Below, piece after piece: positions 9,301 through 25,753 of a stretch of 44,991 nucleotides of DNA. The notes beneath the pieces are model-generated. The model saw nothing but the letters and a program-made list of their open reading frames with translations, made no database searches and was not told where the DNA came from. The position numbers and the translations under genes are program-made. Where the stretch lies: positions 1 to 44,991 of the forward strand of contig JAVUPY010000027.1 of NCBI GenBank assembly GCA_032252755.1, in the 5' to 3' direction. The first letter of the stretch is position 1; each line of letters starts with the position of its first letter. Source of the DNA: Terriglobia bacterium (GTDB lineage: Bacteria; Acidobacteriota; Terriglobia; Terriglobales; Acidobacteriaceae).

Positions 9301-9304
9301 TGCT

Positions 9305-10033: not shown

Positions 10034-10094
10034 GTTCTCTGCCTTTGTACTTCTTGAACTACAGGCAGAGTACGAGAGGAAGCAGGGCTACCAT

Positions 10095-10108
10095 ATGACT
10101 TAAGTCAC
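10095..10108 (-). promoter_or_regulatory. Candidate Crp/Fnr-type operator of the ric-nnrS-norZ operon
   Basis: The core TGACTTAAGTCA (10096-10107) is a perfect 12-base palindrome and fits the (G/A)TGA-N6-TCAC pattern seen upstream of five other units in this window. A TACTCT hexamer on the minus strand (10072-10067) has its centre 32 bp downstream of the palindrome centre. That is class II activator geometry, with the site at about -41.5 and transcription starting near 10060. Confidence 0.65.
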
Positions 10109-10112
10109 GGGA

Positions 10113-10193
10113 AGAGTCGAAAGTCGAAAGCTGCAAGTCGAAAGCTAAGACCAGCAGGAGATACTGCCTTCCAGCTTCTGACTTTTGACTTTA
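10113..10193. repeat. GTCGAAAG-type spacer repeat
   Basis: AGTCGAAAG occurs three times between 10115 and 10147. An imperfect inverted counterpart (AGCTTCTGACTTTTGACTTT) follows at 10174-10193, so the block can fold back on itself. A similar string, AGCTTTCGACTTGCGACTTT, occurs at 32499-32518 after etfA. It appears to be a dispersed spacer element without coding capacity. Confidence 0.45.
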
Positions 10194-10213
10194 GAATTTC
10201 GGCCTTCGACCGC

Positions 10214-10912
10214 TTACTCCTGGAGCTCAGCGGCCAGTTTGTCAGGCTTCGGTATGGAGATGTTGCGGCCGTCCATCGCGATGAGGCCTTCGGATTGAAG
10301 ACGGCTCAGGTTGCGGGAGACGAGTTCGCGGACGGTGCCGAGTTGGGCCGCGAGTTCCTGGTTGTTGGCGTTGAGAGTGAATTGAATTCCCGACGCGGAT
10401 CTCTTCCCTTCCGTTCTTGCCAGTCGAAGTAAAAGAGCGACGAGGCGGTGGCGAACCGTGGTGAACGAGAGTTCTTCAATGATGCCGACCAGTCGCCGGA
10501 GACGCGCACCGACCACCTTGAGAACTTTGAGTGCGACTTCCGGATGCTGCAAACACAGAGCATGAAAAGCCTGCTTGCTGACAAACAGCATTGTGCTGTC
10601 GCTTACCGCCTGTGCTGACGCCGGATAGTTGCCACCATCGAACACGGGCAATTCAGCAATAGATGAGCCAGGGCCTTCTATGGCGAGCACCTGCTCGCGA
10701 CCACTTGCGGCGCTCTTGAATATGCGGACATTACCCGTCTGAACCACGTAGAGACCCTCGCAGGGATCGCCCTCCGAGAAAAGCAACTCGTCGCCTCCGA
10801 CCTTTCGTTCGACGGTTCGAGTGACAAGGAATTCGAGTTGTGCGTCGTTGAGCCCGGAAAAGATGGGCACGCGACGAAGTGTTCCGGCAATGGTTGGCTT
10901 CAGGTCCGACAT
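10214..10912 (-). CDS. Crp/Fnr-family transcription regulator (NnrR/Dnr-like position)
   Basis: The protein has 232 residues. An N-terminal cyclic-nucleotide-binding-type beta barrel (about residues 10-125; FSEGDPCEGLYVVQTGNVRI) is followed by a long dimer helix and a winged HTH. The recognition helix region is LGTVRELVSRNLSRL, which keeps the R-E-x-x-x-R spacing of CRP. There is no N-terminal Cys cluster, so it is not a classical Fe-S FNR; proteins of this build include the NO-responsive NnrR/Dnr type. It lies directly upstream, in transcription order, of the NO operon and downstream of the ywiC-like gene. ATG 10912 was chosen by family alignment; ATG 10921 and TTG 10939 are in frame and no ribosome site decides. 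The ligand is unknown. Confidence 0.85.
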   Translation of the reverse strand: MSDLKPTIAGTLRRVPIFSGLNDAQLEFLVTRTVERKVGGDELLFSEGDPCEGLYVVQTGNVRIFKSAASGREQVLAIEGPGSSIAELPVFDGGNYPASAQAVSDSTMLFVSKQAFHALCLQHPEVALKVLKVVGARLRRLVGIIEELSFTTVRHRLVALLLRLARTEGKRSASGIQFTLNANNQELAAQLGTVRELVSRNLSRLQSEGLIAMDGRNISIPKPDKLAAELQE

Positions 10913-11012
10913 GGGGAGCATTGTAATTGGGACAGTCAATCGGGTCAGTGCTTATATGCGGAAAACCGCACACCCCGGCGACAAAGGCTGGAAGGGGCCT
11001 CGAACCGAATGT

Positions 11013-11870
11013 TCATTGCGGCAGGTAGAAACTGGTGATGAGCAGCACTCCGAAGGTGATAGCGTGCAGCAGTTCGGTCACACCCAGCCACTGCACGTCG
11101 AGTGCTTCCGGTTTCTGGAAAACCCAGACCACACCGCGTATCACGATCGGCAGAAAGGCAACGGCGGCGAAGAGGGGTAGATCAGTGGCGGCTGAGAGTG
11201 ATGCAATGATAACCAGCATCGCGCCCTGCAGAACCAGGAATCCCCAACCGCGACTGAACCGGTTCCGGGCTCCCGCAATCTTGGAATTCCGAAGCCGCAG
11301 TTGGACATAGTGGATCTGATCGCACGCAAAGAGCCAATTGGCGACCCATAGCGCGAACGCCAGCGAATCAAGGCGTCCGGTTACGACGTAATAGGCGCCG
11401 GCCGCGGTCGAGGTAAGGCCGATAGCGCCGATGATCTGGGCGGGCATGCGCATTTTTCGACCGAACAACTTTACGCAAGCCTGCGTTGCAAACGCCGCGC
11501 CGGCGATCGCGCCGATAAAAACGAGTCCGAGGTGCTGCCCATTGCGGAAGAGGAAGTACAGGGGGAGGGCGGCGAAGGAAGAGATTATGAGAGTCGCCTG
11601 CCATACGGTTCTCTTCTCTTCCGCATTATGGGCGTGCATGGTGCTGCTACCAAGGAGGACTTCAACCGGAGTGCGCAGCCAGAACAGCGCGAAAGCTGCG
11701 GTGAGAAACTGAAGAAATGCGAGTATTCCGTTCCCGTGCAGGAAGCCAACACAGCCGGCAATAACCAGCGGCACCAGCAGGATGCCCCACGCGCCGTGCT
11801 CGCGAGGAATCACCAGGGCTCTCATCCTCGAACGATGAACATCATTGATTCCCGAAACTGCGGACATCAT
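11013..11870 (-). CDS. YwiC-like integral membrane protein
   Basis: The protein has 285 residues and about nine membrane helices. The N-terminal signature IPREHGAWGILLVPL (about residues 21-35) is that of the YwiC-like family. The family has no known biochemical role, but in Bacillus subtilis ywiC lies beside the nar and fnr genes of anaerobic respiration, and here it again sits next to a Crp/Fnr gene and respiratory genes. AGGAG lies four bases before ATG 11870 and seven before ATG 11867, so either may be used. It follows the NirJ/AhbD-like gene by 116 bases that include a palindromic element. Confidence 0.78.
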   Translation of the reverse strand: MMSAVSGINDVHRSRMRALVIPREHGAWGILLVPLVIAGCVGFLHGNGILAFLQFLTAAFALFWLRTPVEVLLGSSTMHAHNAEEKRTVWQATLIISSFAALPLYFLFRNGQHLGLVFIGAIAGAAFATQACVKLFGRKMRMPAQIIGAIGLTSTAAGAYYVVTGRLDSLAFALWVANWLFACDQIHYVQLRLRNSKIAGARNRFSRGWGFLVLQGAMLVIIASLSAATDLPLFAAVAFLPIVIRGVVWVFQKPEALDVQWLGVTELLHAITFGVLLITSFYLPQ

Positions 11871-11944
11871 TGGACTCCTGAAATTTCAATCCGCCGAGGG
11901 CGGTGCCGACTGAACCCCACGTTCTAGTCTGGAACTCTTGACAC

Positions 11945-11981
11945 CCCCACCCCTGCCGCTGCGCGACAGAGGTGGGGCACA
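11945..11981. repeat. Palindromic mini-element after the NirJ/AhbD-like gene
   Basis: CCCCACCCCTG pairs with CAGAGGTGGGG with one mismatch, and GGGCACAA follows, the same tail as in the element inside the radical SAM gene at 461-503. It begins just after the stop of the gene at 11987-13219 and could end transcription on the minus strand, although no T tract follows. Confidence 0.6.
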
Positions 11982-11986
11982 ATGTT

Positions 11987-13219
11987 TTATTTCACTTCCA
12001 CATAGCTCTTCGGCTGATATACGCAGAAGGGTTCGGAAGCCATGAAGTCTCCTGTGGCTGCATACGCACGCGCGCGGCATCCCATGCAGACATGGCGGAA
12101 TTCGCAACAACCGCACTTCCCTTTCAGCGCATCGTCGTCGCGAAGCGCCTGGAAGACTTCGGCCTTCTCCCAGATTTCGGCGAACGTTTGTTTGCGAAGA
12201 TCGCCCGCAAGCGCCGGGAGATAGCCGCAGGGATAAATTTCGCCTTCGTGTGAGATGAAGCAAACCCCGGTACCGGCGAGGCAGCCCTTCGTAACGGCGC
12301 TCATCCCATCCGGGTGACCGCCTGGATGTCCACCCGGATGACCTCCGGGATGCCCTGCATGTCCCGCGCGGTCGGGTTTTCCCGCGAAGGAAATACCGGT
12401 TGACCCGGGCATCGTCATTTCGACAGGACCGATCGCAGGCACTTCAACTGGCGCCTCGACTCGCTGCTGCCCGTAACCGGCGGCTTTGCGCTCAGCCACG
12501 CGACGCTGGCGAACGACGCGGAAATAGTGCGGCGCGCACGTGGCCTTCAACTCGATATCACCTGCAAGTGACTGATCGTAGAACCAGTTGAGAATTTCTT
12601 CGTATTCCTGCGGCGGCACCATTTGCTCTTCGGCGATATCGACACCACAACCAACCGGAACGAGCAGGAACGTGTGCAGCGCGTCGGCCCCGAGGTTCCG
12701 AACCATCTGCAGAACCTGCGGCAACTGCTTGGCATTGTGGCGCGCGATCGTCATGTTGATCTGCACCGGCATTCCGAGCTCTTTCAGGTTGCGGAATCCG
12801 TATATGGCGGCGTCGAATGCCCCGGGAATTCCGCGGAACGAATCATGAATCTCGGCATTGGCGCCGTCGAGACTGATGGAGACGCGCTTCACGCCGGCAC
12901 GGACAATCTTCTGGGCGATTTCCTTCGTGACGAGGGTACCGTTGGTGGCGAGCGCGACGCGCAGGCCGAGGTCGGTACCATAACGGGCGAGTTGGAAAAT
13001 ATCAGTGCGGTATAAAGGCTCGCCACCGCTGAGCACCAGGATCGGATTCGCGTACGCGGCAATCTGACGGATGATGTCGAGAGCTTGGTCGGTCGGAAGA
13101 TCGGTAGGCGATGCGAGTTCAGTCGCGGTGGCCCGGCAGTGGATGCAACGCAGATTGCATCCCTTAGTGACTTCCCAGAAGATCAGCCGCGGTTTGTACT
13201 CCCTGGTTGCGGGATTCAT
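11987..13219 (-). CDS. NirJ/AhbD-like radical SAM-SPASM enzyme (haem biosynthesis type)
   Basis: The protein has 410 residues. The radical SAM motif is CNLRCIHC (CX3CX2C, about residues 21-28), followed by VLSGGEPL (the GGE motif). The C-terminal SPASM-like domain has KGCLAGTGVCFIS, CGYLP and CGCCEFRHVCMGCRARAYA, enough Cys for auxiliary 4Fe-4S clusters. The closest families are AhbD (iron-coproporphyrin III to haem b) and NirJ (haem d1). With four multihaem cytochromes beside it and no cd1 nitrite reductase, an AhbD-like role or another haem modification is more likely; this is inference. A Gly/His-rich insert (GHAGHPGGHPGGHPGGHP) separates the core from the SPASM part. Start ATG 13219 has AGGAGAAAGAA upstream. 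Two tandem operators lie at 13306-13341. Confidence 0.82.
   Translation of the reverse strand: MNPATREYKPRLIFWEVTKGCNLRCIHCRATATELASPTDLPTDQALDIIRQIAAYANPILVLSGGEPLYRTDIFQLARYGTDLGLRVALATNGTLVTKEIAQKIVRAGVKRVSISLDGANAEIHDSFRGIPGAFDAAIYGFRNLKELGMPVQINMTIARHNAKQLPQVLQMVRNLGADALHTFLLVPVGCGVDIAEEQMVPPQEYEEILNWFYDQSLAGDIELKATCAPHYFRVVRQRRVAERKAAGYGQQRVEAPVEVPAIGPVEMTMPGSTGISFAGKPDRAGHAGHPGGHPGGHPGGHPDGMSAVTKGCLAGTGVCFISHEGEIYPCGYLPALAGDLRKQTFAEIWEKAEVFQALRDDDALKGKCGCCEFRHVCMGCRARAYAATGDFMASEPFCVYQPKSYVEVK
12309..12361. repeat. In-gene 12-bp repeats encoding a GGHP linker
   Basis: Near-identical 12-base units (GGATGNCCACC-type on the plus strand) encode GGHP three times plus flanking GHAGHP and GGHPDG within the NirJ/AhbD-like gene. 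The length is likely to vary between strains by slippage. The His spacing suggests a metal-binding linker. Confidence 0.75.
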
Positions 13220-13305
13220 TTCTTTCTCCTGTTTCCCCCACCGCACCTTGTGCGGGCGTTCCCCAAACGCACCTCCACTCTAGATTTTCTATTACCCAAG
13301 CAGCC

Positions 13306-13341
13306 GTGATTCGAGTCACGGGTACTTGTGACCAATGTCAC
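13306..13341 (-). promoter_or_regulatory. Tandem Crp/Fnr-type operators of the NirJ/AhbD-like gene
   Basis: GTGATTCGAGTCAC (13306-13319; flanks extend it to CCGTGA...TCACGG) and GTGACCAATGTCAC (13328-13341) both fit GTGA-N6-TCAC perfectly. Their centres are exactly 22 bp apart. On the minus strand TAGAGT (13282-13277) lies 33 bp downstream of the proximal centre and matches four of six -10 positions, predicting activation from a class II site. Confidence 0.75.
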
Positions 13342-13437
13342 TCGGGCGGAAGTGCCGTAAATTCAGCTGGAAAAACCCCAGGGCCGCCGATAACCGGACG
13401 ACGAACCTGGGGGACAAACCTACAACCCGAACGCTGT

Positions 13438-14967
13438 TTACGGGCCGACTCCGCCGGTGTGGCAATCGGAGCAATTCACCTGCGTGAGGTCGCCCAGATC
13501 AACGGGATGCTTGAACTGCACGCCCTCGGCCGATCCCTGCAACTCGACGCCATTCTCCGACTGTGACAGCAGAGTGTGGCACGCATTGCAGTCCTTGCTG
13601 ATCACCTTGCCATTCTTGCTCACGTGGTTGCCGTCATGACAGCGGAAGCAGCCCTGAAAGTAGAAGTGGCCGACGTTGTCGGGATGCGTCTTCCAGCTCA
13701 CCTTCATCTCGGGGAAAATGCTGTTCTGGAAGATGCGCTGCAGTTCGGAGACCATCGCCTTGATCTCCGGCTGTTTGGAGTTATAGATGTCCGGATACTT
13801 TTCCTTGTAGAACGCCGGTATCTTGGTGGCGATCGCCTGCAGCGCCTCGGGTGTTGACTTGTAATCGGCGGCCAGCGCCTCGACGCCCTGCGCCTTCGCG
13901 AACGGGAGCGAGATGTCGATACGATGCGCAGTGATCGCCTGGTCGACAGAGCGATCCGGCGGCATGTAGATGTGCGTCGGCCGATTGTGGCAGTCTACAC
14001 AATCCATACGCTTGCTCTGTAGTTTCCCGAGAGCCGCGGGAGTCGTGTCAGCGCCCGGTGCGGCGTACTCAGTGACCTTGCCGCTCATGTCCACAAGTCG
14101 TACGTAGGAGATGTTCTGGCGCGTTGGATCGGACCAATAGGTGATCTTATTGCCGATGTTCATGTGCCAGTGAATGCCCGAAGCGACACCAGCGCTGGGA
14201 TCGCCACCGCCTGTCTTAATGAGCAGGCGGAATTCGCGAGGAGTACTTTTCTCGTCGCTGCCGTATGTATCGATGACCTTCAGCTGGGCGCCCCAGAACT
14301 TCTTGGGCCAGTGGCACTGCTCGCAGGTTTCCGGAGCGGGGCGAAGGTTGGCGACCGGCGTTTCGATCGGCCGCGGGAAGGTATTGAGAGCGGTCTTGAA
14401 TACCTGCCTAGCTCCGGACAGTTTCGAACGCACGTACCAACCCGCACCGGCTCCTACGTGGCAGTCGACGCAGCGAACGCGCGCATGCGGCGAATTCTGG
14501 TGCGCGACGAACTCGGGATGCATCACGGTGTGACACAGCCGGCCGCAGAATTCGACCGAGTCGGTGTACTCGTACCCGCGATAGCTGCCCACGGCGCTCA
14601 TGAGCACGAAGATCACCACGAAGGAAAGAAAGAATGCGACGGTGCTCCGCTGCGCAGGATTATTGAGGTCCAGAAGCGGGAATCCTCTCTCATCGGGGCC
14701 CGCGATCTTCTTCCGGTGTAACCACATGCCGAGTGGAACCAGCAGTAGGCCGAGAATGAGGAATCCGGGAAACACCATGTAGGCGAGAACGCCGACATAG
14801 GGGCTGGGGCGTGAGGAAGTGAGATCGATTAAAAAGAGAAAAAGAATGTTGGCGAGCGCGACGACCGCGAGAGCCAGCCCTATGAGGCTGACATAATTTC
14901 GAAGCAGCGCGCGCAGATTAATTGCTGCAGACCCAGATGCATTTTCCGGGGCACGATCCTCGGGCAT
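13438..14967 (-). CDS. ImcH-like NapC/NirT-family heptahaem cytochrome c
   Basis: The protein has 509 residues. Three N-terminal membrane helices (about residues 25-50, 55-85 and 108-130) anchor a periplasmic multihaem domain. There are seven haem-attachment motifs: an atypical CX3CH (CGRLCHTVMHPE, with a Met as possible ligand as in NapC/NrfH) and six CXXCH (CVDCH, CEQCH, CVDCH, CFRCH, CNACH, CSDCH). This layout resembles ImcH of Geobacter, an inner-membrane quinol dehydrogenase needed for respiration of high-potential acceptors. It probably takes electrons from quinol and hands them to periplasmic cytochromes. AAGGAG lies eight bases before the ATG. It follows the cytochrome b gene by 147 bases. 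Confidence 0.88.
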   Translation of the reverse strand: MPEDRAPENASGSAAINLRALLRNYVSLIGLALAVVALANILFLFLIDLTSSRPSPYVGVLAYMVFPGFLILGLLLVPLGMWLHRKKIAGPDERGFPLLDLNNPAQRSTVAFFLSFVVIFVLMSAVGSYRGYEYTDSVEFCGRLCHTVMHPEFVAHQNSPHARVRCVDCHVGAGAGWYVRSKLSGARQVFKTALNTFPRPIETPVANLRPAPETCEQCHWPKKFWGAQLKVIDTYGSDEKSTPREFRLLIKTGGGDPSAGVASGIHWHMNIGNKITYWSDPTRQNISYVRLVDMSGKVTEYAAPGADTTPAALGKLQSKRMDCVDCHNRPTHIYMPPDRSVDQAITAHRIDISLPFAKAQGVEALAADYKSTPEALQAIATKIPAFYKEKYPDIYNSKQPEIKAMVSELQRIFQNSIFPEMKVSWKTHPDNVGHFYFQGCFRCHDGNHVSKNGKVISKDCNACHTLLSQSENGVELQGSAEGVQFKHPVDLGDLTQVNCSDCHTGGVGP

Positions 14968-15114
14968 GAATGCAACTCCTTAAGAGCGGGAACAAACCTC
15001 TTGAGCCGGCTCCCGATTTTGTTTCTACGACTAAAAAAAATCGCAAGACTTCTGCGAGCCCTGTCTCCCTGCAAATCCGCGGGGAGTTCTGCCTGGTTTC
15101 GCGCCGCCTGACCT

Positions 15115-16014
15115 TCAGCGATACGCAAAGACCATTGCATAAACAATCCAGACCACTACAAACGACCCAATCGCCAACGCCATCCAGGCAAATGCCCGGA
15201 TTCCCCGAACGACGATCTCTGGATGGGGTTCGGCGAGATTCTCTTCCAGGCGGCCACTCTCCACGAGTTCCGCATATTCCCGCGGCTTGTCGCGTTTCAG
15301 TTCCACCAGCGACATTCTTCCTGTGAACACGGTGGTATCCATCGGAAACTTCTCAGGACGGAGATGAGTGTTGAAAAAATGCACCGTGAAAATGAAACCG
15401 GTAGCGAGCAACGCTTCGTCGCTGTGGATGATCGTTGCCACATTGATGAAGGATCCGGGAATGAAGCGCGTGAAGAAAATCGGGAACCACAGCGCCAGTC
15501 CAGTGGAACCGATGATGAACACGCCCCAGAACACTGCGAAGTAATCAAACTTCTCCCAGTAAGTCCAACGTCCGTACTGGGGCCGCGGCCCGCGCCCGAC
15601 GAACCATTTCATCGTAGCGATGAATTCTTTCAGGTCTTGCCGGTTGGGGACCATCGATCCCGGGCCGAAGACGAGAGACGTCCAGTTCTTGTGCTGCTCC
15701 TTCTTCTGCCGATAGAGATCCAGCAGGTGGGTGATGAAGGTCCCAAACATGATGAGCGCGGCAGTGCGATGAATATAGCCGGCCGTTTCGAAGCCGCCCA
15801 TCAACCGCGAGAGCCAGACGGCCCAATTTGTATAGGAGAACTTCAGGGTCAGTCCTGTGAGCGACAGGCTCAGGAAACTCACGACCATGCAGGCGTGGAG
15901 TGCACGGTTCTTGCGACTGAAGCGCACGAATTCGCGCTTCTCCACCTGCTTTCCAGAACCGGCGGCACGCGTTGAGGCTTCAGGTGTCGTTACGACTGTC
16001 GCTTCACTCGGCAT
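15115..16014 (-). CDS. Di-haem cytochrome b subunit (FdnI/HydC-type)
   Basis: The protein has 299 residues. Four or five membrane helices carry the His pattern of the formate-dehydrogenase gamma / Ni-Fe-hydrogenase b-type family: NRALHACMVVSFLSLSLTGL, GYIHRTAALIMFGTFITHLLDLY and IHSDEALLATGFIFTVHFF, followed by the HLRPEKFPMD tail. It should oxidise quinol and pass electrons to a periplasmic partner. The partner is probably the 19-haem protein encoded just upstream: the start ATG 16014 (with GAGGAGG inside the previous gene) overlaps that gene by 11 bases. Its membrane domain resembles the C-terminal half of the CbcL-like fusion at 18082-20118. A last helix (FAWMALAIGSFVVVWIVYAMVF) closes the protein. 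Confidence 0.87.
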   Translation of the reverse strand: MPSEATVVTTPEASTRAAGSGKQVEKREFVRFSRKNRALHACMVVSFLSLSLTGLTLKFSYTNWAVWLSRLMGGFETAGYIHRTAALIMFGTFITHLLDLYRQKKEQHKNWTSLVFGPGSMVPNRQDLKEFIATMKWFVGRGPRPQYGRWTYWEKFDYFAVFWGVFIIGSTGLALWFPIFFTRFIPGSFINVATIIHSDEALLATGFIFTVHFFNTHLRPEKFPMDTTVFTGRMSLVELKRDKPREYAELVESGRLEENLAEPHPEIVVRGIRAFAWMALAIGSFVVVWIVYAMVFAYR

Positions 16015-18076
16015 TTTTAGCCTCCTCACCTGACGTCCCGTCGTCGAGGTTCTCCTCTTTCTCAGCTTCTTCTTTCCGGAGTTCCCTTCTCATCTCCAGG
16101 GCCCGGGGTAGCCACAGGACTGTGTGTATCCCGCCGAACACGAATGTTCCCACCAGCAACGCCGTCATACCCCAGAACGTGTAGAACAGGAACGGATACT
16201 TTCTCGGATCGTGGTGGGTAGCGTGGGTGAGGTATCCGGCGAACCGACGCGTGGCGCCGGCATGACACTTCCCGCAGGTCGCGACCACGTTTACTCGGCT
16301 CAAATGCGAGCGTGGATCGCCAATTGCCGCAATGTCGTGCGCGCCGTGACAGTCGTAACACTTGGCAGTCTTGGTATAACCGAGGCGGGACACCTTGCCG
16401 TGATACGTGTCGAAATATGTTTTGGCAATCTCAGAATGGCAGCGGCCGCAGCGATTCATGATTTCGAGCTTGAACGAATCTTGATCGGCGCGCGTAATCT
16501 GATGCGCCGTGTGGCAATCGCTGCAGACCGGTAGAGGCTTATCCGTTTTGGTAACACTGGGGGAGTGAACGCTTTGATTAAACTGCTCCTCGATTCCGTT
16601 ATGGCATTTGCCGCAGGTGTTGGGAAGGTTGCGCGGGTTAACGGAGGAGCCTGGGTCGCTCGTGGGCAGAACGCCGTGCGCGGTGTGGCAACTAGTACAC
16701 GTGGCCGTCACGGTAAGGCCGCTCTTCAGCAGTCCCTTTCCGTGAATACTCTCTTTGTAGTTGGGAATGATCTGGTGTTGGCTGCCGGTGTAGCGGAGCG
16801 CCGCCTTCTGACCTTCACGATGGCAGTTGCCGCACAAATTCGGAACGTTGGTGGAGAAGATCGGCGAGGACGGATCGTATCGCTTCAGGACATGATGGGT
16901 TCCGTGGCAATCCTTGCATGTCGGCGCGTTCTTGTCGTTTTGAGCGAGCAACTGACCGTGCTTGCTGCGCTCAAACTGCTGGCCGATTTCTTCGTGGCAG
17001 GCGCTGCAGTCCACTTTCCTGGTGATGGTTTCACAAGGACGCACTCGCGACGCGTTCACCTCGGAGTGGCACTGACTGCAGGCGATCTTGCTATGAGTTG
17101 AACCAGCCACCTCCTCCACCTGCACGAACATCGATCGGCCGTCGCGACTCTTCAGACCCTGGTTGCTGTGGCAGCGCATGCAGTCCGCATCCGCCATTCC
17201 CTGGGTGTAATAGACCTTCCTGATCTTGTGAGGCTGGTGGCAGTCGACGCAGGCTGGGAGAACGTTGGCTTCCTTTTCCCAAAGTTCACCCCGAATGGTC
17301 TTGCGATGCACACTTTCGATTTGCGAGTGACACTTGGTGCAGGTTGCCGCGATGTTCCGTCGCGCAATTGACGACTTCGGATCTGTGTGTGGAAGGATGG
17401 AATGTGGCGTATGGCACGACGCGCAGTTCGGCGCCACCACCAGGCCCTTCTTGAACAGCGCTTCGCCATGAATGCTTTCCGAGTAATTCTCGAGGATGTT
17501 GTGCTCGGGAATGTTCCGGGTTTTCTGGACCGCCGTTCCCTCCTGGTGACACTTGCCGCAAACGAATGGAATTTTCAGTGGTGCAACCGCGGATCGGGAA
17601 TCCTTCACCGGAACGATGTCGTGATTGCCGTGGCAGTTCACGCAACGGGGAGCAAGGCTGTCCCCGCGGGCTGCCGCGCGTCCATGCAGCGACTTCGCCT
17701 GTAGTTCGGCCTCCTGGGAGTGGCAGGTTCCGCACTCTACCTTCTTCAACGGTGTGGAGTGTGGCAACTCTTTGCCTTCGAGATCGGCGTGGCACGAGGT
17801 ACAGGAGAGCGAAGAGTGGACCGAACCTGAAAATCTCTTAGCATCAACGAAGAGCGACATCGTCCGTCCACCGCGCCGCGTGGTCATGCTCTTGTCGCCG
17901 TGACAAGCCAGGCAGTCGTCGTTCTGCTGTGCGTATACCGTGGCGCCGGCGAAGAGTATCAGGATGACTTTCGCGAGCACCGCAACCGTGGAGTTCAGCG
18001 GTAATCGCCTTTGTCCTGAACGGAGGAGAACCGACTGGGACCGAACGCTGCGCCTGTGAATGATCTTTTCTCCCAT
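16004..18076 (-). CDS. 19-haem membrane-anchored cytochrome c
   Basis: The protein has 690 residues. An N-terminal hydrophobic export signal (LAKVILILFAGATVYAQ, about residues 34-50, after a long basic leader) is followed by 19 CXXCH motifs from CLACH near residue 55 to CGKCH near residue 620. A single C-terminal membrane helix (FLFYTFWGMTALLVGTFVFGGIHTVLWLP) and a charged tail rich in Glu complete it. The haem domain is built from repeats of roughly 70 residues with SIHG, CxxCHxxHxI, DPxS and TCGKCH blocks, as in periplasmic haem wires. I infer an electron conduit anchored at the inner membrane and fed by the cytochrome b encoded by the overlapping downstream gene. It starts five bases after the preceding stop; the leader is long, so a later start cannot be ruled out. 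Confidence 0.88.
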   Translation of the reverse strand: MGEKIIHRRSVRSQSVLLRSGQRRLPLNSTVAVLAKVILILFAGATVYAQQNDDCLACHGDKSMTTRRGGRTMSLFVDAKRFSGSVHSSLSCTSCHADLEGKELPHSTPLKKVECGTCHSQEAELQAKSLHGRAAARGDSLAPRCVNCHGNHDIVPVKDSRSAVAPLKIPFVCGKCHQEGTAVQKTRNIPEHNILENYSESIHGEALFKKGLVVAPNCASCHTPHSILPHTDPKSSIARRNIAATCTKCHSQIESVHRKTIRGELWEKEANVLPACVDCHQPHKIRKVYYTQGMADADCMRCHSNQGLKSRDGRSMFVQVEEVAGSTHSKIACSQCHSEVNASRVRPCETITRKVDCSACHEEIGQQFERSKHGQLLAQNDKNAPTCKDCHGTHHVLKRYDPSSPIFSTNVPNLCGNCHREGQKAALRYTGSQHQIIPNYKESIHGKGLLKSGLTVTATCTSCHTAHGVLPTSDPGSSVNPRNLPNTCGKCHNGIEEQFNQSVHSPSVTKTDKPLPVCSDCHTAHQITRADQDSFKLEIMNRCGRCHSEIAKTYFDTYHGKVSRLGYTKTAKCYDCHGAHDIAAIGDPRSHLSRVNVVATCGKCHAGATRRFAGYLTHATHHDPRKYPFLFYTFWGMTALLVGTFVFGGIHTVLWLPRALEMRRELRKEEAEKEENLDDGTSGEEAKNAE

Positions 18077-18081
18077 CTGGT

Positions 18082-20118
18082 CTAGTTGTCCTGGTTCCGT
18101 CCGGCTTCAGCCCCGGCGGCCACGGTTTGTTCGGAGGCGGTTTCGCTGTTCTCCGCCGCCTGTTTCTCGGCTTCCAATTGCATGGCAGCCAATATGGTTT
18201 CGGAGTCGAGGGCGTGTTCTTCGCGATACTGCTCAATCGTCATCTTGCCGTCGTACCAGGCCCAGTTCATTGGGTAGACATCCGGGTCGAAGATAACCAT
18301 GTAGAAGTGCCAGACCAGGATGGCAAGGGTAGCGAGAATGGCCTCGTAGAAGTGGACCGTCATGCCAACGTCGATGCTCCAGCGCGGCAGCAAATCGCCG
18401 ACCGGAACCTTGAACCACGCCATCAGTCCAGTGACGGCCATGACAATAGTTCCCCATACCAGCGCCCAGTACTCCATCTTCTCGGCATACCCGAAGCGTG
18501 GAAATTCGGGTTTCTTTTTGCTGAGGCCCAGGTAGTAGAGCAACACGTCACGTATTGCGATCGCATCCTGATACCTCGGCATCAGATCGCTCACAAGCTT
18601 GCGGCCTTCCTTGTAGCGAATGACATAAAACACGTGATAGAGGCCGACAGCAATGAGCACTGCCCCGGCAGTGCGATGGATATATCGGCGAACTGCCTCG
18701 TTGATGAAAATGGTGCCGAGAATCGATTCCGGATACTTAAGCGCAAAGCCCGTAAGCACGAGCGTAAGGAAACTGGTAAGCAAAACCAGGTGCTGCCGGC
18801 GTTGCAGCCTCGTCATGCGAACAACCACACGTTCGCCGCCGCCGATGTGCACGTGCCCTTCGCGGCGATCCTTTAATTTCTTGCGCATGATCAGCAGGTT
18901 ATGCACCAGCATTCCGCCGATCGTCGCGAAGATCATCAGCAGGTAAAAGTCACGGGCAATTCGCGAGAATTTGCTGCCAAGGTCGCTGGCTTCGGCGGGA
19001 TCGACGTGCACCTTGGAGTTCGCAAAGTTCGCGTTGGCGCCCGCGTGACACTTGCCGCAGGTTGCGACCAGGTTCCGAGGATTAATCGTCGAGTTTGGAT
19101 CGCTCGACGGAAGAATGTCATGTACGCCGTGGCAACTGGCGCAGTTCGCGGCCTTGCTCGAGCCCATCTCCGTCGCCAGGCCGTGATAGCTTTCGAAGTA
19201 CGTCGTCGCGCGGCGACCTGGGATGCCGAACTCCTCCGACATGCGCACGCTGTTATGGCATCGCGCACAGGTATTCTTGGCGAGGTTCTCGGCGGACACA
19301 CTCGATTGCGGATTGCCCGGGGCCAGGATTGTGTGTATGCCGTGACAGTCGGTGCACGCGGGAGCATGGAGATCGCCCGCGGCGAGTTCCTTGCCATGAA
19401 TGGATTTTTCGAACTGAGTCGCTTCTTTCTGGTGACACTTTGCGCAGGTCGCTGGAACGTTGGACTTGGAGATTGAGGAAGCGGGGTCGTTGGCTGGACG
19501 AATCGCATGCTTCTCGTGGCAATCGGTACAGACTGCGGCCTTCTCGCTGCCGCCCGCGACGGCTTCACCGTGCACACTTTGCGAATAAGAAACAGCGGGC
19601 GCGGTGCTCACTCCCGTAGGGTTCATGACCGCGGTTTTGGTGTGGCATTTGTCGCAGGTCTTCGGAATGTTGAGATGGTTGACGAGAGATGCCGGATCGC
19701 TGGCCGGGAGAATCTCGTGAACTGACCCATGGCAATCGGAACAGCGCGCGGCCTGTCCTATGCCGGCCTTGACTGCTTTGGCGTGAACCCCGCTGTCGTA
19801 TTGCTTCTGTTCGTCGGCGTGGCATTGCGCGCAGGAAGGCTTACCGGGAGGAACCGAGTGGGGAACGTCCTTGACGTCGGTATGACAATCGACGCACTGG
19901 AACATCTGCCCGTGAATGGAGGCTGCAAACTTCTTCGGGTCAACACCGAGGCTGACGCTCTTGCCATTCTCCTCCTTCGTCAGCGTGGGATCGTTATGGC
20001 AGGCGAGACAGTCGTCGTTCGTGAACTTGGGCTTGGCCTCGTCCTTTTTTTGCGCGAATCCGGCTGATGCCAGCAAGAGCAGCAGGAACAGAATTCTTAC
20101 GATCCATGCAGGTTTCAC
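18082..20118 (-). CDS. CbcL-like fusion of 11-haem cytochrome c and cytochrome b
   Basis: The protein has 678 residues. A signal peptide (ILFLLLLLASAGFAQ) precedes a periplasmic domain with 11 CXXCH motifs (CLACH to CGKCHAGAN, residues about 37-370). A membrane helix and a b-type cytochrome domain with His pairs in HLVLLTSFLTLVLTGF, YIHRTAGAVLIAVGLYHVFYV and VHFYEAILATLAILVWHFYMV follow. A multihaem domain fused to an FdnI/HydC-like di-haem domain is the architecture of Geobacter CbcL, an inner-membrane quinol oxidase used with low-potential extracellular acceptors. The same role is inferred here. It is first in the operon with the 19-haem, cytochrome b and perhaps ImcH-like genes, and lies behind tandem operators at 20249-20284. 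Confidence 0.9.
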   Translation of the reverse strand: MKPAWIVRILFLLLLLASAGFAQKKDEAKPKFTNDDCLACHNDPTLTKEENGKSVSLGVDPKKFAASIHGQMFQCVDCHTDVKDVPHSVPPGKPSCAQCHADEQKQYDSGVHAKAVKAGIGQAARCSDCHGSVHEILPASDPASLVNHLNIPKTCDKCHTKTAVMNPTGVSTAPAVSYSQSVHGEAVAGGSEKAAVCTDCHEKHAIRPANDPASSISKSNVPATCAKCHQKEATQFEKSIHGKELAAGDLHAPACTDCHGIHTILAPGNPQSSVSAENLAKNTCARCHNSVRMSEEFGIPGRRATTYFESYHGLATEMGSSKAANCASCHGVHDILPSSDPNSTINPRNLVATCGKCHAGANANFANSKVHVDPAEASDLGSKFSRIARDFYLLMIFATIGGMLVHNLLIMRKKLKDRREGHVHIGGGERVVVRMTRLQRRQHLVLLTSFLTLVLTGFALKYPESILGTIFINEAVRRYIHRTAGAVLIAVGLYHVFYVIRYKEGRKLVSDLMPRYQDAIAIRDVLLYYLGLSKKKPEFPRFGYAEKMEYWALVWGTIVMAVTGLMAWFKVPVGDLLPRWSIDVGMTVHFYEAILATLAILVWHFYMVIFDPDVYPMNWAWYDGKMTIEQYREEHALDSETILAAMQLEAEKQAAENSETASEQTVAAGAEAGRNQDN

Positions 20119-20248: not shown

Positions 20249-20284
20249 GTGAGAGTTCTCACCTGCAAATGTGACCTTAATCAC
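20249..20284 (-). promoter_or_regulatory. Tandem Crp/Fnr-type operators of the CbcL-like operon
   Basis: GTGAGAGTTCTCAC (20249-20262) and GTGACCTTAATCAC (20271-20284; flanks extend it to ATGTGA-N6-TCACAT) both fit GTGA-N6-TCAC perfectly. Their centres are exactly 22 bp apart, the same arrangement as upstream of the NirJ/AhbD-like gene. The -10 region at the expected distance is A-rich (GAAAAC on the minus strand) but weak. The proximal centre is 137 bases before the start codon. Confidence 0.72.
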
Positions 20285-20481: not shown

Positions 20482-23058
20482 CTAGAACTGATACTTCACG
20501 CCAACCGTGCCAACAGTGGCATGGAAGTCGCGGGGAGCAACCCCCACCCAGCTGCCACCCACGAGCGCAGAGGCACCGGTCGGGTCCGACTTCTCGTTGT
20601 ATCCGTAGTAGGCGTAATCGCCCTTCAGGAAGACGCCCTTCGCAACTTCGATCGAGGCGCCTGCCGAAGGCTTGTGGAAGCTGATGGCCAGCGGTCCCTG
20701 CGGGACATTCGGATTGTAGGGAACGAAGGCCGTTGTGGATCCCCCGGCCTGAACGCGGCTCTGCTGCAGGAGGAGTGGAGCCAGTGTGTCGGCGCGAAGG
20801 AAGCCGTCGGAACCGCTATTGCTGGAGATGTCGTAGCCGACGCTGAGCGCAACGCGCTTCACCGGCTTGAACATCAGGTTGAAGTACCCGGTATTGATCC
20901 GCTCCTTGTAGCGCACCACCACGGCATAGTCGCCTGTCGTGGGTGTCGGCGTCGCGGCGGTCGGATCATAACAGTAACTGAGTGCGCCACCCTCGGCGGG
21001 AATCACGCTGGGTCTCGTCGAAACGGGCAGACAGCTGCCCGTGTTCGAGTAGATGTCGTTGAACGTATAGCCGAGGTCCAGCGCGAACCGATCGTTCGGA
21101 GTGTAGTTGACGTTCCCGTTATACGAGTAAGCGTGGTCGCGATGATCCTGCTCCGGCGCGCTGATGAACCCCGCTGGGGAAACGTCATTACTTCCCTGCC
21201 GCAGGCTCATCGATCCGGAGACGTTGACGTCTTTGCTTACCCGATAAGACGAACGCCCGCGGAAAACGAACAGGGTTGTCGGCGCGATGCGAGTGAAAGC
21301 CTCATCGTTGTTCACGAACTCGAAGTCGGCATTCACGCGCCACGCGTCGACAGGACGCAGGATCACGCCCGCCAGCAGCGTTTTTTCGTGGATCAACACC
21401 TCGCCGGCATCGCCGGCTGGTTCGGTCGTAACCGTGCCACCCGGTTGAGCGACAAGCGTGCTGCCGGTCCACAGATTGTACGGATAGTAGATCGTCGTCG
21501 AGTAGCTGTTGTCCTTGTCGTTGTACCTGCGGTTTCCGTAGCGGAAGCCGATGTGCGCGCTGAAGAGACGGTTCGCGTCGACTTCAAGCAGGGTCGTGTT
21601 CGATACCGTTCGCTGGCCGTAATAGTAGATGAAGTTCTCATCGGTGACATTGCCGCCGCTCGATGTGGTCAACACCGACGGAGTCGACGTGATGGGAATC
21701 GCAAGCTGCCCCGTGAACGCATCAGGCAGACATGCGGTCGCGCCAGCCGTTGTCGGACCCGATGGACTGAACACATTCGCCGGAGCCGCGCCGGACGGAA
21801 TCACATTCGCATAGCACGCGATTTCCGAACTGTTCCACATTGCCGGAATTCGCCAGTAGAGATAGCGAAGCTGGTTCGTCACCGACCACTGATCATTGAG
21901 GTGATACGTGAGGCCGAGGTCAGCGTTGGTGCTGATGCGGTCAATGACCGCAGGACCGCTGACCTGGAATCCGGTTTCGTTGGTTCGCGAAACATAGGTT
22001 CGGGCCAACTCATCGAAGTTGTCCATCTTGCTGCGCCCGGAACTGTAAGAACCGGAAGCCGTGATGTCCAGCTTGTTCCAGTAATTGCTCACCAGTGAAA
22101 GCTGCGAGGTCGGAAAGTCCGTCCGCGTCGGAGCCGACCGCGAGTAGTAAAGGTACAACCCGCAGTTCGGCTTGATGGCTCCCGAGCTGTTGACGATCGG
22201 CGTCGGCGTATTGGCGCACGGCTGGCTGTTGAAAGGATCGTAGATGATTCCAAGGTCAGCCGGGACACCGTTCGACGTGAAGTTGCCCACGCTGCCGTCG
22301 AATGCAACCGTGTCCACCTTGTTGTGATCGAAGAAGAAGTCATAGCTGAGCTGTGTTTTGCGCGCGAACTTCCAATCGACTCCAAGCTGGTAACGATCGG
22401 AGCGGTTGCGGAAGTTCTCGTTCAGCATGATCTCCGTACCTTCGTGATAGCTGGTCGCCGCGGGACCCTCGTTGTTGTTTCGCGAGTAGCCCAATCGCAG
22501 CCGCATCGGAGATTGCGGAGCTATCGTGAGATTGAAATCTCCGAAGTTGCGTCGAGTGTTCATGAAGTGCGGCGAAATGCTGTTCGGCGCGTAAACGTTC
22601 GCGGGAACCAGCGGATTCGCCAGCAGGTTGTAATCGAATGAGTTGATGTCATAACGGTAGGACGCCGCGAAGTCATACCAGTGGTTCTTGTACATCCGCA
22701 AGCGGGTCGCGCGCTCGGGATCGCCGCCATAACCGAAGCTGCTCATCCACAAGCTGTCGAAGACCGAACCGATGTGATTGATCGACCTCATGCTGAGCGT
22801 CTGATCGAGCAGCCTCGGCCCAGTGTGAAGACCAACCATCGATTCATAGGTGCCGTCGCTACCGTTGTTGTCGGCGAAGCGGACCCCGAACTCCACCGAT
22901 TGCGTCACGACGTAGTTGCCGCTGACTTTGCCTTCCGGTTCGCTCTGCTGTGCGACGGCAACGCATGAGAGCAGTAGAACAACAGCGATGCCGATGACTT
23001 TCCATTCGCCCCGTGGCTGCTGGGGGCGTCCTGGCGTATTCGATTTTTTCTGTGCCAT
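20482..23058 (-). CDS. MtrB/PioB-type decahaem-associated outer-membrane beta-barrel
   Basis: The protein has 858 residues. A signal anchor and cleavage region (VIGIAVVLLLSCVAVAQ, about residues 21-37) is followed by alternating amphipathic strands rich in aromatic and polar residues (for example RLRLGYSRNNN, QLGVDWKFARKTQLSYDFFFDH, RVALSVGYDIS). The chain ends GTVGVKYQF, the terminal Phe being the usual outer-membrane assembly signal. These are the marks of MtrB/PioB barrels, which wrap a decahaem cytochrome to carry electrons through the outer membrane. The decahaem gene ends 11 bases upstream, as in mtrAB and pioAB operons. It lacks the N-terminal CXXC of Shewanella MtrB. Cys pairs in predicted outer loops (QPCANTP/KPNCGLY, SCLPV/SYCYDP) may form disulfides. 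A +-strand open frame across it is a shadow. Confidence 0.87.
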   Translation of the reverse strand: MAQKKSNTPGRPQQPRGEWKVIGIAVVLLLSCVAVAQQSEPEGKVSGNYVVTQSVEFGVRFADNNGSDGTYESMVGLHTGPRLLDQTLSMRSINHIGSVFDSLWMSSFGYGGDPERATRLRMYKNHWYDFAASYRYDINSFDYNLLANPLVPANVYAPNSISPHFMNTRRNFGDFNLTIAPQSPMRLRLGYSRNNNEGPAATSYHEGTEIMLNENFRNRSDRYQLGVDWKFARKTQLSYDFFFDHNKVDTVAFDGSVGNFTSNGVPADLGIIYDPFNSQPCANTPTPIVNSSGAIKPNCGLYLYYSRSAPTRTDFPTSQLSLVSNYWNKLDITASGSYSSGRSKMDNFDELARTYVSRTNETGFQVSGPAVIDRISTNADLGLTYHLNDQWSVTNQLRYLYWRIPAMWNSSEIACYANVIPSGAAPANVFSPSGPTTAGATACLPDAFTGQLAIPITSTPSVLTTSSGGNVTDENFIYYYGQRTVSNTTLLEVDANRLFSAHIGFRYGNRRYNDKDNSYSTTIYYPYNLWTGSTLVAQPGGTVTTEPAGDAGEVLIHEKTLLAGVILRPVDAWRVNADFEFVNNDEAFTRIAPTTLFVFRGRSSYRVSKDVNVSGSMSLRQGSNDVSPAGFISAPEQDHRDHAYSYNGNVNYTPNDRFALDLGYTFNDIYSNTGSCLPVSTRPSVIPAEGGALSYCYDPTAATPTPTTGDYAVVVRYKERINTGYFNLMFKPVKRVALSVGYDISSNSGSDGFLRADTLAPLLLQQSRVQAGGSTTAFVPYNPNVPQGPLAISFHKPSAGASIEVAKGVFLKGDYAYYGYNEKSDPTGASALVGGSWVGVAPRDFHATVGTVGVKYQF

Positions 23059-23069
23059 GATGTCCCCCT

Positions 23070-24005
23070 TTATTTGAAGAAAATGTTGGAAGCGTTAGAG
23101 CCGTGTATCTGCGAGTGGCACATGGTGCAGGCCTGGCTTTTGGTGTTTTGCGGATGAGGCCCGTTAGGAATTCCGGCGTGACACTCGAGGCACATCGAGT
23201 TCACCGTCGGACGGGACAGCAGCCGAGGATGTGTCGAGCCATGCGGACTGTGGCAAGCCTGGCAACCTTCTGCCTTCACTACCGCGTGCTCGAATACGAA
23301 CGGACCCTTCTTGTCGCTGTGACAGTTGAAGCAGACTGCGTCCTGCGTGGAAGCCGAACGCAACTGGCGGTTCGCAGCGGAGTGCACGTTGTGGCAGTCC
23401 GTACACTTCACCAGCCCTTCATTCACGCGATGCCGGAAGGGTTGATCGAACTCTGACCTGACCTGCTGGTGGCACGAGTAACACAACCCTCTCTCGTCGT
23501 CGGCAAGCAGGTATTGCGCTTCTTTCGGTCGGTGAATGTTGTGGCACGACGTGCACCCAACACCCGCCTTTGCATGCGCAGAACGATTGAAGGTCATGTG
23601 CTCGGGGTTGGTCTCGTGACAGGCCATGCACCGCACACTGGCCTCCGCCTGCGAGACACCCTGGAACGTGAATATCTTGTTCTTGTCACCGCCGGCTTCC
23701 ACGTGCGCACTTCCGGGTCCGTGACAGGATTCGCAGGCGTGCCAGGATTCGCCGCGGCCGTTCTTGAACGTAGTTTTATAGTGCGCGCTTGTTTCGATCT
23801 GTTTGAATTGCTGCTCGTGACACCCCTGGCAGGTATCCGAGCCAACGTAGTTGTTTTGGGGCGCAACACTCGTCTTGACTTGCGACGAATGTTCTTGCGC
23901 AGAGCTTGCATGGACGGCGACGGATTGCACAACTCCGAGCCAGAACGTCAGCCCCACGGTGAGCGCCCACATCAATGGCTTTTGAGTGGTCTCTCTTTCC
24001 CTCAT
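23070..24005 (-). CDS. DmsE/MtrA-family periplasmic decahaem cytochrome c
   Basis: The protein has 311 residues. A signal peptide (LMWALTVGLTFWLGVVQSVAVHAS) precedes ten CXXCH motifs: CQGCH, CESCH, CMACH, CTSCH, CYSCH, CTDCH, CFNCH, CQACH, CLECH and CTMCH. Length, haem count and the phrases GSDTCQGCHEQQF, CMACHETNPEHM and CTDCHNVHS match the DmsE/MtrA family. The protein should insert into the barrel encoded next and move electrons across the outer membrane. Two adjacent ATGs exist; 24005 has AGGAG at a spacing of five and is preferred. A single operator at 24097-24110 precedes it. No surface cytochrome of the MtrC/OmcA kind is in the window. Confidence 0.93.
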   Translation of the reverse strand: MRERETTQKPLMWALTVGLTFWLGVVQSVAVHASSAQEHSSQVKTSVAPQNNYVGSDTCQGCHEQQFKQIETSAHYKTTFKNGRGESWHACESCHGPGSAHVEAGGDKNKIFTFQGVSQAEASVRCMACHETNPEHMTFNRSAHAKAGVGCTSCHNIHRPKEAQYLLADDERGLCYSCHQQVRSEFDQPFRHRVNEGLVKCTDCHNVHSAANRQLRSASTQDAVCFNCHSDKKGPFVFEHAVVKAEGCQACHSPHGSTHPRLLSRPTVNSMCLECHAGIPNGPHPQNTKSQACTMCHSQIHGSNASNIFFK

Positions 24006-24096
24006 CATTGCTCCTGGGCGATTCTCGGCAAGACGCATTCTTCGCGCACTTCGCCGAGTGCTCCATGATTCTCATCGGCATTTTTAGAAACACCGC

Positions 24097-24110
24097 GTGA
24101 GCCAAATCAC
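24097..24110 (-). promoter_or_regulatory. Crp/Fnr-type operator of the decahaem/barrel operon
   Basis: GTGAGCCAAATCAC fits GTGA-N6-TCAC. On the minus strand GAGAAT (24073-24068), four of six -10 matches, has its centre 33 bp downstream. No second copy is found 22 bp away. Confidence 0.62.
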
Positions 24111-24245: not shown

Positions 24246-24274
24246 CAACAAAATGGCGGCGCCGAAGCGCCGCC
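24246..24274 (-). terminator. Rho-independent terminator of the truncated regulator gene
   Basis: GGCGGCGC and GCGCCGCC (24255-24262 and 24267-24274) form a perfect eight-pair stem with a TTCG loop on the minus strand, followed by ATTTTGTTGTT. It lies 18 bases after the stop at 24293, where a full-length paralogue would still be coding. Confidence 0.88.
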
Positions 24275-24292
24275 CAGAAACTCAACTTGACG

Positions 24293-24790
24293 TTATGCGC
24301 GAAGTCTTGGAGCGCGAGGCCGCCGTGACCGGCTCAGGCCAATGGAACGCACGCGTTCATAAGCGCCATGCAGATCCTGGCTCAACATGTTGACGACCAT
24401 CATGCAGACGTCCCGGTGCTCGCGGAGAAACTTCAGCAGATCTTTACGCTTGATATGAACAACCTGGGAAGCATCGAGCAGTTCGGCGCTGACCTCGTAG
24501 GGAGTGCCGGCCATCGTAGCGCCAAGTCCCAGCACTTCTCCGGGTCCCGCGATCCGTAGCATCAGGCGCTTTCCAGTTTCAGAGCAGATGGTGAGTTTGG
24601 CCCGGCCTTCGCAAAGAATATAAATGCCTTTGGCAGCACGCCCTTCGGAGAACAAAACCGTACCTCGCGGTTCGGTACTCGCGATCTTGATGGTGTCGAA
24701 TGACTGCAGCGCGTCGATAGGCATGTCACAGAACAGCCGGTCGGGACGGAAGTCGCAATTGAAACAACTCGGCTGGATCGTGCTTTCCAT
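24293..24790 (-). CDS. Crp/Fnr-like sensor protein lacking the DNA-binding domain
   Basis: The protein has 165 residues against 239 for its neighbour at 25034-25753, with which it aligns closely from end to end of the sensor part (LFCDMPIDALQSFD versus IFCDLPANALQAFE; GEVLGLGATMAGTPYEVSAE versus GEVLGLSATVSGKPYELTAE; FLREH; RSIGLS versus RSLGLS). It has the cyclic-nucleotide-binding-type barrel, the dimer helix and the N-terminal Cys triad C9, C12, C21 (CX2CX8C). It stops in a short Arg-rich tail where the winged HTH should begin, and a strong terminator follows within 20 bases. Tandem operators precede it. It may be a decaying gene or a real sensor-only partner that forms inactive heterodimers; sequence cannot decide. 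Confidence 0.72.
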   Translation of the reverse strand: MESTIQPSCFNCDFRPDRLFCDMPIDALQSFDTIKIASTEPRGTVLFSEGRAAKGIYILCEGRAKLTICSETGKRLMLRIAGPGEVLGLGATMAGTPYEVSAELLDASQVVHIKRKDLLKFLREHRDVCMMVVNMLSQDLHGAYERVRSIGLSRSRRPRAPRLRA

Positions 24791-24826
24791 GACTCTTTTG
24801 TTTACTTCACTCGCAATGCGTAATCT

Positions 24827-24862
24827 GTGACTCTAGTCACTATTTGCTGTGGTGAGAGTCAC
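24827..24862 (-). promoter_or_regulatory. Tandem Crp/Fnr-type operators of the truncated regulator
   Basis: GTGACTCTAGTCAC (24827-24840) is a perfect GTGA-N6-TCAC site. GTGGTGAGAGTCAC (24849-24862) differs at one position, and its centre is again exactly 22 bp away. The proximal site is only 37 bases from the start codon, which could equally mean autorepression. Confidence 0.68.
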
Positions 24863-25033: not shown

Positions 25034-25753
25034 TCAACTTGTCGCGAGAGCTTTCAACGCGGCCTTATTGCGAATCACCAAGGTGGAACCTTTCGCCTGC
25101 ACGATCTGCCGTTTCTTCAATTCAGCAAACAACCGTGTGACGGTTTCTCGCGAGGTGCCGATCATCTGCGCGATCTCCTCGTGAGTGAGCGCCAGTTTCA
25201 ATCTCGGCTCGGTCTTCGCGTTCTCGCCGTTGCGGGCACTCCAGTCGAGGAGGAGCTTCGCCAGTTTCTCCGCCGCAGAGTGTGACAATCCGAGAGAGCG
25301 GATCTCGCGGCACGCGGTGTTGTACTTGTCGCTCAACTGCTCGGCGACCCGGAAACATGCATCGGCGTGCTCGCGGAGGAAGCGAAGGAAATCTTCGCGC
25401 TTTACGAAATTGATCTGGCAGGGATCAATGGTCTCAGCCGTCAACTCGTAAGGCTTGCCCGAGACGGTCGCACTCAGGCCAAGAACTTCGCCGGCCTCGG
25501 CGATCTTGAGGATCAGCGTCTTGCCATCCGTGGAGCAGATCGACAGCTTAACCCGGCCCTTGCACAGGACGAAGATTCCACGTGGCGCCTGGCCTTCCAC
25601 GAAAAGGACCGCCCCCTTGGGGTAGGCGGTCGCATATTTAACAGATTCAAACGCCTGGAGCGCATTGGCGGGCAGATCGCAAAAGATATGCTCGGCCCGC
25701 ATTTTGCAGCTCAGACAGCTTTCGATGATATCGAGTCCATATGGTGATAGCAC
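25034..25753 (-). CDS. Full-length Crp/Fnr regulator with N-terminal Cys triad
   Basis: The protein has 239 residues. C13, C16 and C25 (CX2CX8C) precede the barrel, and more Cys lie at VLCKGRVKLSIC; this could hold an Fe-S cluster, as in FNR, though the spacing differs from Escherichia coli FNR. The winged HTH contains LTHEEIAQMIGTSRETVTRLFAEL. The RETVTR segment is the CRP type, whose Arg, Glu and Arg contact GTGA half-sites, matching the palindromes found upstream of six units here. I infer that it is the regulator of the electron-transfer genes, probably redox- or oxygen-sensing. It starts at GTG 25753, with no strong ribosome site. It is divergent from the acyl-CoA dehydrogenase operon. 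Confidence 0.85.
   Translation of the reverse strand: MLSPYGLDIIESCLSCKMRAEHIFCDLPANALQAFESVKYATAYPKGAVLFVEGQAPRGIFVLCKGRVKLSICSTDGKTLILKIAEAGEVLGLSATVSGKPYELTAETIDPCQINFVKREDFLRFLREHADACFRVAEQLSDKYNTACREIRSLGLSHSAAEKLAKLLLDWSARNGENAKTEPRLKLALTHEEIAQMIGTSRETVTRLFAELKKRQIVQAKGSTLVIRNKAALKALATS

Follow-up and report, generated by a model that had tools for sequence, protein, structure and literature searches.

Paralogues without a helix-turn-helix (HTH) domain that disable their full-length relatives are already documented in the LuxR family. TrlR has the sensor and dimerisation domains, lacks the DNA-binding domain and forms inactive heterodimers with TraR; it is a frameshifted copy found on pTiR10 and pTi15955 (PMC6341043) and is 88% identical to TraR (PMC11655674). 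CerN, which has no HTH and is 31% identical to CerM, prevents CerM from binding its site when acyl-homoserine lactone is present, and FleT/FleQ are named as another pair of this kind (PMC11655674). In the Crp/Fnr superfamily, the Herbaspirillum proteins Fnr1 and Fnr3 show that Fnr paralogues can heterodimerise in vivo (PMC5934665), and an HTH-less Crp-family protein with a phenotype has been described in CrpR1a of Riemerella anatipestifer, for which a small overlapping downstream ORF still encodes the HTH motif and HTH-bearing alleles exist (PMC13277301). Among the open-access matches listed, no report of a conserved HTH-less antagonist paralogue in the Crp/Fnr superfamily was found, CrpR1a being the nearest case.

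The locus described here lies in a window, the whole stretch of 44,991 nt that was analysed, and comprises two Crp/Fnr paralogues:

24293-24790, minus strand: HTH-less Crp/Fnr paralogue of 165 aa (hereafter SHORT), with the Pfam domain cNMP_binding only
25034-25753, minus strand: Crp/Fnr regulator of 239 aa (hereafter FULL), with cNMP_binding and HTH_Crp_2

SHORT lies 243 nt downstream of FULL on the same strand and is 48% identical to it. It consists of an N-terminal CX2CX8C motif, a β-roll (Pfam PF00027, 62.3 bits against a cut-off of 27.5), a dimer helix at residues 126-155 and a basic tail. The first-pass annotation had described it as matching its 239-aa neighbour to the end of the dimer helix and then stopping, and on this local alignment and Pfam agree: the aligned part begins at SHORT residue 8 and extends over the dimer helix, beyond which SHORT has only an Arg-rich tail, and the C-terminal HTH (HTH_Crp_2/Crp) is absent by Pfam. 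Downstream of SHORT no HTH remnant was found in the three frames of its strand, where the best local scores were 22-35 over short stretches. The predicted structure of SHORT keeps the dimer helix (H126-155) and superposes on FNR of A. fischeri with a Z of 19.1 and an rmsd of 2.5 over 151 residues, while the prediction for FULL, with a mean pLDDT of 47.9, was left unused. Charge complementarity between the dimer helices of SHORT and FULL (K143/D139, E150/R146) was inspected by eye, gave no clear salt bridge and was set aside. SHORT is by its place in the tree a Crp/Fnr descendant, yet no DNA-binding member of the family; like TrlR and CerN it is the paralogue of a regulator in which the dimerisation region has been kept and the DNA-binding domain lost. 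By analogy with TrlR and TraR, SHORT could act as a feedback partner that forms inactive or weakened heterodimers with FULL, a proposal that we regard as evenly balanced between right and wrong.

Orthologues of SHORT were found in 43 of 300 family genomes, from 24 genera, by a search at E<=1e-40 in which more diverged short forms go uncounted. FULL orthologues occur in 60 of the 300 at a threshold of >= 346 bits, the next-best matches, which are C86-like paralogues plus a partial copy, reaching <= 343 bits; both totals were tallied by hand. A search of relatives for the truncated form beside a full-length copy had been proposed, and 40 of the 43 SHORT genomes, tallied by hand, have both. The exceptions are G014, which is 97% complete, G141 (67%; locus L150) and G091 (74%). 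Conversely, 17 of the 60 FULL genomes, all from two genera (g29 and g7), have no SHORT; the loci of six were opened (L128, L140, L145, L146, L147 and L149, the last of which ends soon after FULL), and for the other 11 the absence is that given by the search. In the FULL tree five of these SHORT-less FULLs separate into two positions, and SHORT has therefore probably been lost at least twice. Two further genomes, G223 and G119, have a SHORT interrupted by assembly Ns, and diverged copies are present in G013, where identity is 33%, and in G025. Sensor-type matches of 33-40% identity in ORFs of 159-184 aa were also seen, for example at G011:C8:9136, G028:C18:279148, G004:C6:33500, G032:C1:4970348 and G010:C138:5740, and other, more distant HTH-less Crp/Fnr-like proteins may exist in the family genomes.

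For the comparisons that follow, 44 distinct SHORT genes were selected as HTH-less ORFs scoring >=140 bits, which leaves out the diverged SHORT-like ORFs L024, L025 and L034 (<140 bits); the 44 are related, and counts over them are not counts of independent events. They encode 160-181 aa except in L048, which is cut by Ns, and in L119, the SHORT of G210, which has an in-frame stop at codon 103 from decay or assembly error. In 40 of the 44, FULL is the immediate upstream neighbour and has the same orientation. The unbiased count for the HTH is that of the opened loci, duplicates included, in which the Crp/Fnr ORF that comes first after a FULL-type ORF is HTH-less in 48, HTH-bearing in 0 and lacking in 3. 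In a tree of sensor and dimer helix with 87 rows, among them 27 of the 44 SHORTs, SHORT forms one clade (100/99) with no HTH-bearing row within it, FULL another (95/94), and the C86-like paralogue type, whose member in the source genome is 64% identical to FULL, a third (99/99).

SHORT has control elements of its own:

24849-24862, minus strand: distal operator with one mismatch, 22 bp upstream of the proximal one, the outer GTGA intact and the inner TCAC replaced by CCAC
24827-24840, minus strand: proximal operator, a perfect GTGA-N6-TCAC (GTGACTCTAGTCAC), beginning 50 nt before the SHORT start codon
24799-24804, minus strand: expected position of a class II -10 hexamer, TAAACA (3/6), weak in the window's copy
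24255-24274, minus strand: intrinsic terminator with an 8-bp all-GC stem, a TTCG loop and a T-rich tail (ATTTTGTTGT), 18 nt after the SHORT stop

The 5.39-Mb genome contains no exact GTGACTNNAGTCAC other than the proximal GTGACTCTAGTCAC at 24827-24840. In all 44 SHORT genes a perfect GTGA-N6-TCAC begins 47-63 nt ahead of the start codon, compared with 1 of 2200 when their upstream sequences were shuffled by mononucleotide. A TATAAT-like hexamer (>=4/6) follows the proximal site after 22 or 23 nt in 35 of 44, compared with at most 2/44 at control offsets of 8-18 and 5/44 at 20; the window's own -10 falls short of this cut-off. Activators of class II sit at -41.5, and the 22/23-nt spacing fits this geometry; transcription of SHORT would then start at the ATG or a few bases from it in most loci. 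Terminator-like hairpins lie <=120 nt from the SHORT stop in 20/43 genes and in 6/430 shuffles. The earlier claims of tandem operators, a regulated promoter and a fitted terminator are thus all borne out, by the two sites 22 bp apart, by the perfect operator and -10-like hexamer in relatives, and by hairpins at the end of the gene. In G014 (L143), the SHORT has lost all three N-terminal cysteines and kept the tandem operator; a related regulator may bind there, given that the operator persists without a FULL orthologue.

Selection on SHORT was estimated at a dN/dS of 0.311 (sum-ratio, Nei-Gojobori, 297 of 820 pairs with 0.1<dS<1.5, 41 sequences) and on FULL at 0.088 (295 of 703 pairs), which makes SHORT about 3.5 times less constrained, although with a median dS of about 1.2 these ratios are rough; L048, L117 and L119 were left out here and in the alignments. 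By part, the value is lowest in the dimer helix (0.263) and highest in the tail (0.549). The sensor part, for which a dN/dS check had been suggested, is not evolving neutrally, with 0.290 in the roll and 0.323 in the N-terminus. SHORT is under purifying selection that is weaker than on FULL and strongest in the dimer helix, where C129 is invariant, as are S137, H141, A143 and R148 (41/41). That SHORT is a decaying duplicate or a recent deletion is in our view very improbable. Its dN/dS above that of FULL, the SHORT-less FULLs in two places of the tree, the diverged copies in G013 and G025 and the in-frame stop in G210 are what decay would leave behind; against them stand a single clade of similar length in 24 genera, an operator conserved in every copy, a dN/dS well below 1 and the count of no HTH-bearing against 48 HTH-less ORFs at this position. 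SHORT is an old clade of single origin, and the recent deletion that the first-pass annotation had offered as its alternative does not hold.

FULL itself evolves differently in one SHORT-less clade, the larger, where its unique changes outnumber those of SHORT-bearing relatives by a factor of 3-8 (e.g. 28 vs 9, 37 vs 8), or 28-38 vs 8-11 overall with L097 as reference and L011 as outgroup. In the second SHORT-less lineage (G028) the difference was not significant (12 vs 6, p 0.24), and 19 vs 9 (p 0.09) was reached in a control that has SHORT. The acceleration could weakly fit the loss of a partner; a relaxed function of FULL in that clade could explain it equally.

Further operators of the same family, and the gene that follows SHORT, lie in the neighbourhood:

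13306-13341, minus strand: perfect tandem operator of 22-bp spacing ahead of the AhbD-like radical SAM gene 11987-13246
20249-20284, minus strand: perfect tandem operator of 22-bp spacing ahead of the multihaem cytochrome c7/b561 gene 18082-20118
23070-24038, minus strand: DmsE-family decahaem cytochrome, the next gene downstream of SHORT (TIGR03508, 239.8 bits against a cut-off of 192.2)
24097-24110, minus strand: lone GTGA-N6-TCAC site, after the SHORT terminator and before the DmsE-family cytochrome gene

Across the genome the loose single-site motif shows no enrichment, with 132 hits against 154 for the reversed control, and it was ruled out as a regulon marker, only the tandem form being informative. 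The 22-bp tandem occurs at 17 places in the genome compared with 0 in the control (<=2 mismatches) and 5 times in the window, where 0.23 are expected (<=3 mismatches). Exact GTGA-N6-TCAC pairs with gaps of 0-20 are found in 25 of 61 genomes and in 0 of 61 reversed controls; by a hand count 42 of 54 such pairs have the 8-nt gap that gives the 22-bp spacing, and two of the three exact 22-bp pairs of the source genome fall in the window. Since the tandem is also found in genomes without a SHORT or FULL match (e.g. G008, G017, G053), it is a feature of a larger set of Crp/Fnr regulators in Acidobacteria. The recognition helix of FULL, SRETVTR, resembles the SRETVGR of CRP. The CRP-type helix suits a site of the TGTGA-N6-TCACA type, and the FULL helix fits such an operator.

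The genes at 5627-20118 (minus strand) form an anaerobic and NO respiration island with a NorB-type oxidoreductase, NnrS, RIC (ScdA/YtfE family), a second Crp/Fnr regulator, a YwiC-like protein, the AhbD-like radical SAM protein, a NapC-like protein and large multihaem cytochromes. Relatives keep, whole or in part, the order FULL-SHORT-(DmsE/MtrB-like)-cytochromes-NapC-like-ahbD-second Crp/Fnr-RIC-NnrS-NorB, with tandem operators at the same boundaries, among them the boundaries in front of ahbD and of the cytochrome gene; in G032 FULL and SHORT stand together, and the other genes of this order are absent from the 16 kb read. At 20482-24038 (minus strand) the DmsE-family cytochrome adjoins an 858-aa protein with a sub-threshold β-barrel match, and the pair, which has a GTGA-N6-TCAC site to itself (24097-24110), may form an electron conduit across the outer membrane. 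Elsewhere, at L052 (G000:C17 near 111968), an operator-like GTGACTCGGGTCAC stands upstream of dsrA (TIGR02064, 588 bits), a possible link of this regulator group to dissimilatory sulfur metabolism, and at L059 (G000:C54 near 108378) GTGACTGAAATCAC stands upstream of a HypA-like gene (86.7 bits, just below the cut-off of 88.1).

The distal operator of SHORT is asymmetric in most relatives. Exactly 22 bp above the proximal site, the inner TCAC is intact in 42/43 SHORT promoters and the outer GTGA in 10/43, L117 being left out for its Ns. Among best-scoring tandems, a method that favours intact halves, 12 of 12 ahbD rows and 2 of 8 SHORT rows have kept the distal GTGA, five rows upstream of FULL not being counted as SHORT. 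Such half-sites would suit a SHORT-FULL dimer with one HTH that sits next to a FULL dimer and adjusts or redirects activation instead of inhibiting it. We consider this improbable: weak half-sites also suit cooperative binding by an ordinary FULL dimer, 6 of the 8 cytochrome rows kept from 10 retain the outer half (two with a score <11 were dropped), and only the copy in the window reverses the pattern, its GTGA being preserved and its inner half disrupted. It is a shade more improbable that the heterodimer reads the asymmetric half-operator as a second DNA-reading form, the ratio of the two forms setting the expression of respiratory genes.

The sensor of SHORT differs from that of FULL. All 38 FULL proteins keep the candidate ligand cysteines C13, C16, C25 and C112, of which C13 and C16 align with C20 and C23 of FNR, and C112 with FNR C122 by HMMER and in one MAFFT run, or three residues before C122 in another. 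The N-terminal cysteines of SHORT are kept in 37, 39 and 37 of 41 proteins, and a cysteine at the position of FULL C112 is found in only one (L118). FNR without C122 shows no significant cluster uptake in vivo (PMC4214427). Because the cysteine at this position is missing and FNR without C122 takes up no significant cluster, SHORT probably cannot sense the way FULL does. The CRP phosphate-binding cassette carries an Arg-Ser pair that contacts cAMP; this pair was not seen by eye in the consensus of SHORT or FULL. Where FNR has D154, all 41 SHORT proteins have Ala, as do the 23 of 38 FULLs included in that alignment, and the superposition agrees. FNR D154A is dimeric regardless of cluster content (PMC4214427), and changes of the D154A type improved Fnr1-Fnr3 heterodimers (PMC5934665). 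By analogy, SHORT would resemble the form of FNR whose dimerisation needs no cluster, and this was counted in favour of a pairing with FULL.

The kept cysteines can also be taken to mean that SHORT is one more member of the regulon, a homodimeric redox or ligand sensor, or a buffer, that stands alone and has an output other than DNA, such as a protein partner or its basic tail. The C129 of the dimer helix, the orphan SHORTs in G014, G141 and G091 and a C-terminus that is basic in all 41 proteins (net charge +2 to +8 over the last 20 residues) speak for it. Set against these are the co-inheritance of SHORT with FULL, the placing of the lowest dN/dS in the dimer helix rather than the sensor, the loss of N-terminal cysteines in four SHORTs (L020, L021, L110, L111) and the lack of a match to FULL C112 in 40/41. 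We find a stand-alone sensor rather unlikely.

The proposal that SHORT pairs with FULL would run as follows. FULL, or a near paralogue that shares its recognition helix, would bind the tandem operator and activate SHORT from the class II position; the SHORT protein would then pair with FULL through the conserved dimer helix. Because the mixed dimer would have a single HTH, it would hold poorly to a palindromic operator, and SHORT would thereby damp the regulon of cytochromes, haem synthesis and SHORT itself in a negative feedback. The Arg-rich tail plays no role in this scheme. Counted against it are the 3/43 SHORT genomes without FULL and 17/60 FULL genomes without SHORT, the weaker constraint on SHORT, the in-frame stop in G210 and the weak -10 of the window. 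We infer from the feedback-type promoter, the dimer helix as the most constrained part, the missing HTH, the altered sensor and the co-inheritance that the best fit is a subunit that draws FULL off its palindromes.

If SHORT works in this way, many acidobacterial genera have fitted a brake to an FNR-like switch that lies close to genes for cytochromes and haem. The idea of a partner is open to comparative tests, since most lineages keep SHORT and two lack it. Among known systems, E. coli FNR shares the fold, and its C20/C23 are matched by the N-terminal CX2C; the third cysteine follows here at a spacing of 8 instead of 5, the fourth is missing in 40/41 SHORT proteins, SHORT has no HTH, and the recognition helix of FULL is of the CRP type. 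CrpR1a resembles SHORT in being of the Crp family without an HTH, but differs in the overlapping ORF that encodes one, and the accessible part of the report mentions no full-length partner gene (PMC13277301). TrlR of Agrobacterium Ti plasmids is likewise a sensor and dimerisation paralogue without a DNA-binding domain, but it belongs to the LuxR family, whereas SHORT represents an old and diverged Crp/Fnr clade. CerN of Cereibacter sphaeroides, also of the LuxR family, acts when acyl-homoserine lactone is present, and shares with SHORT both the missing HTH and the divergence from its partner.
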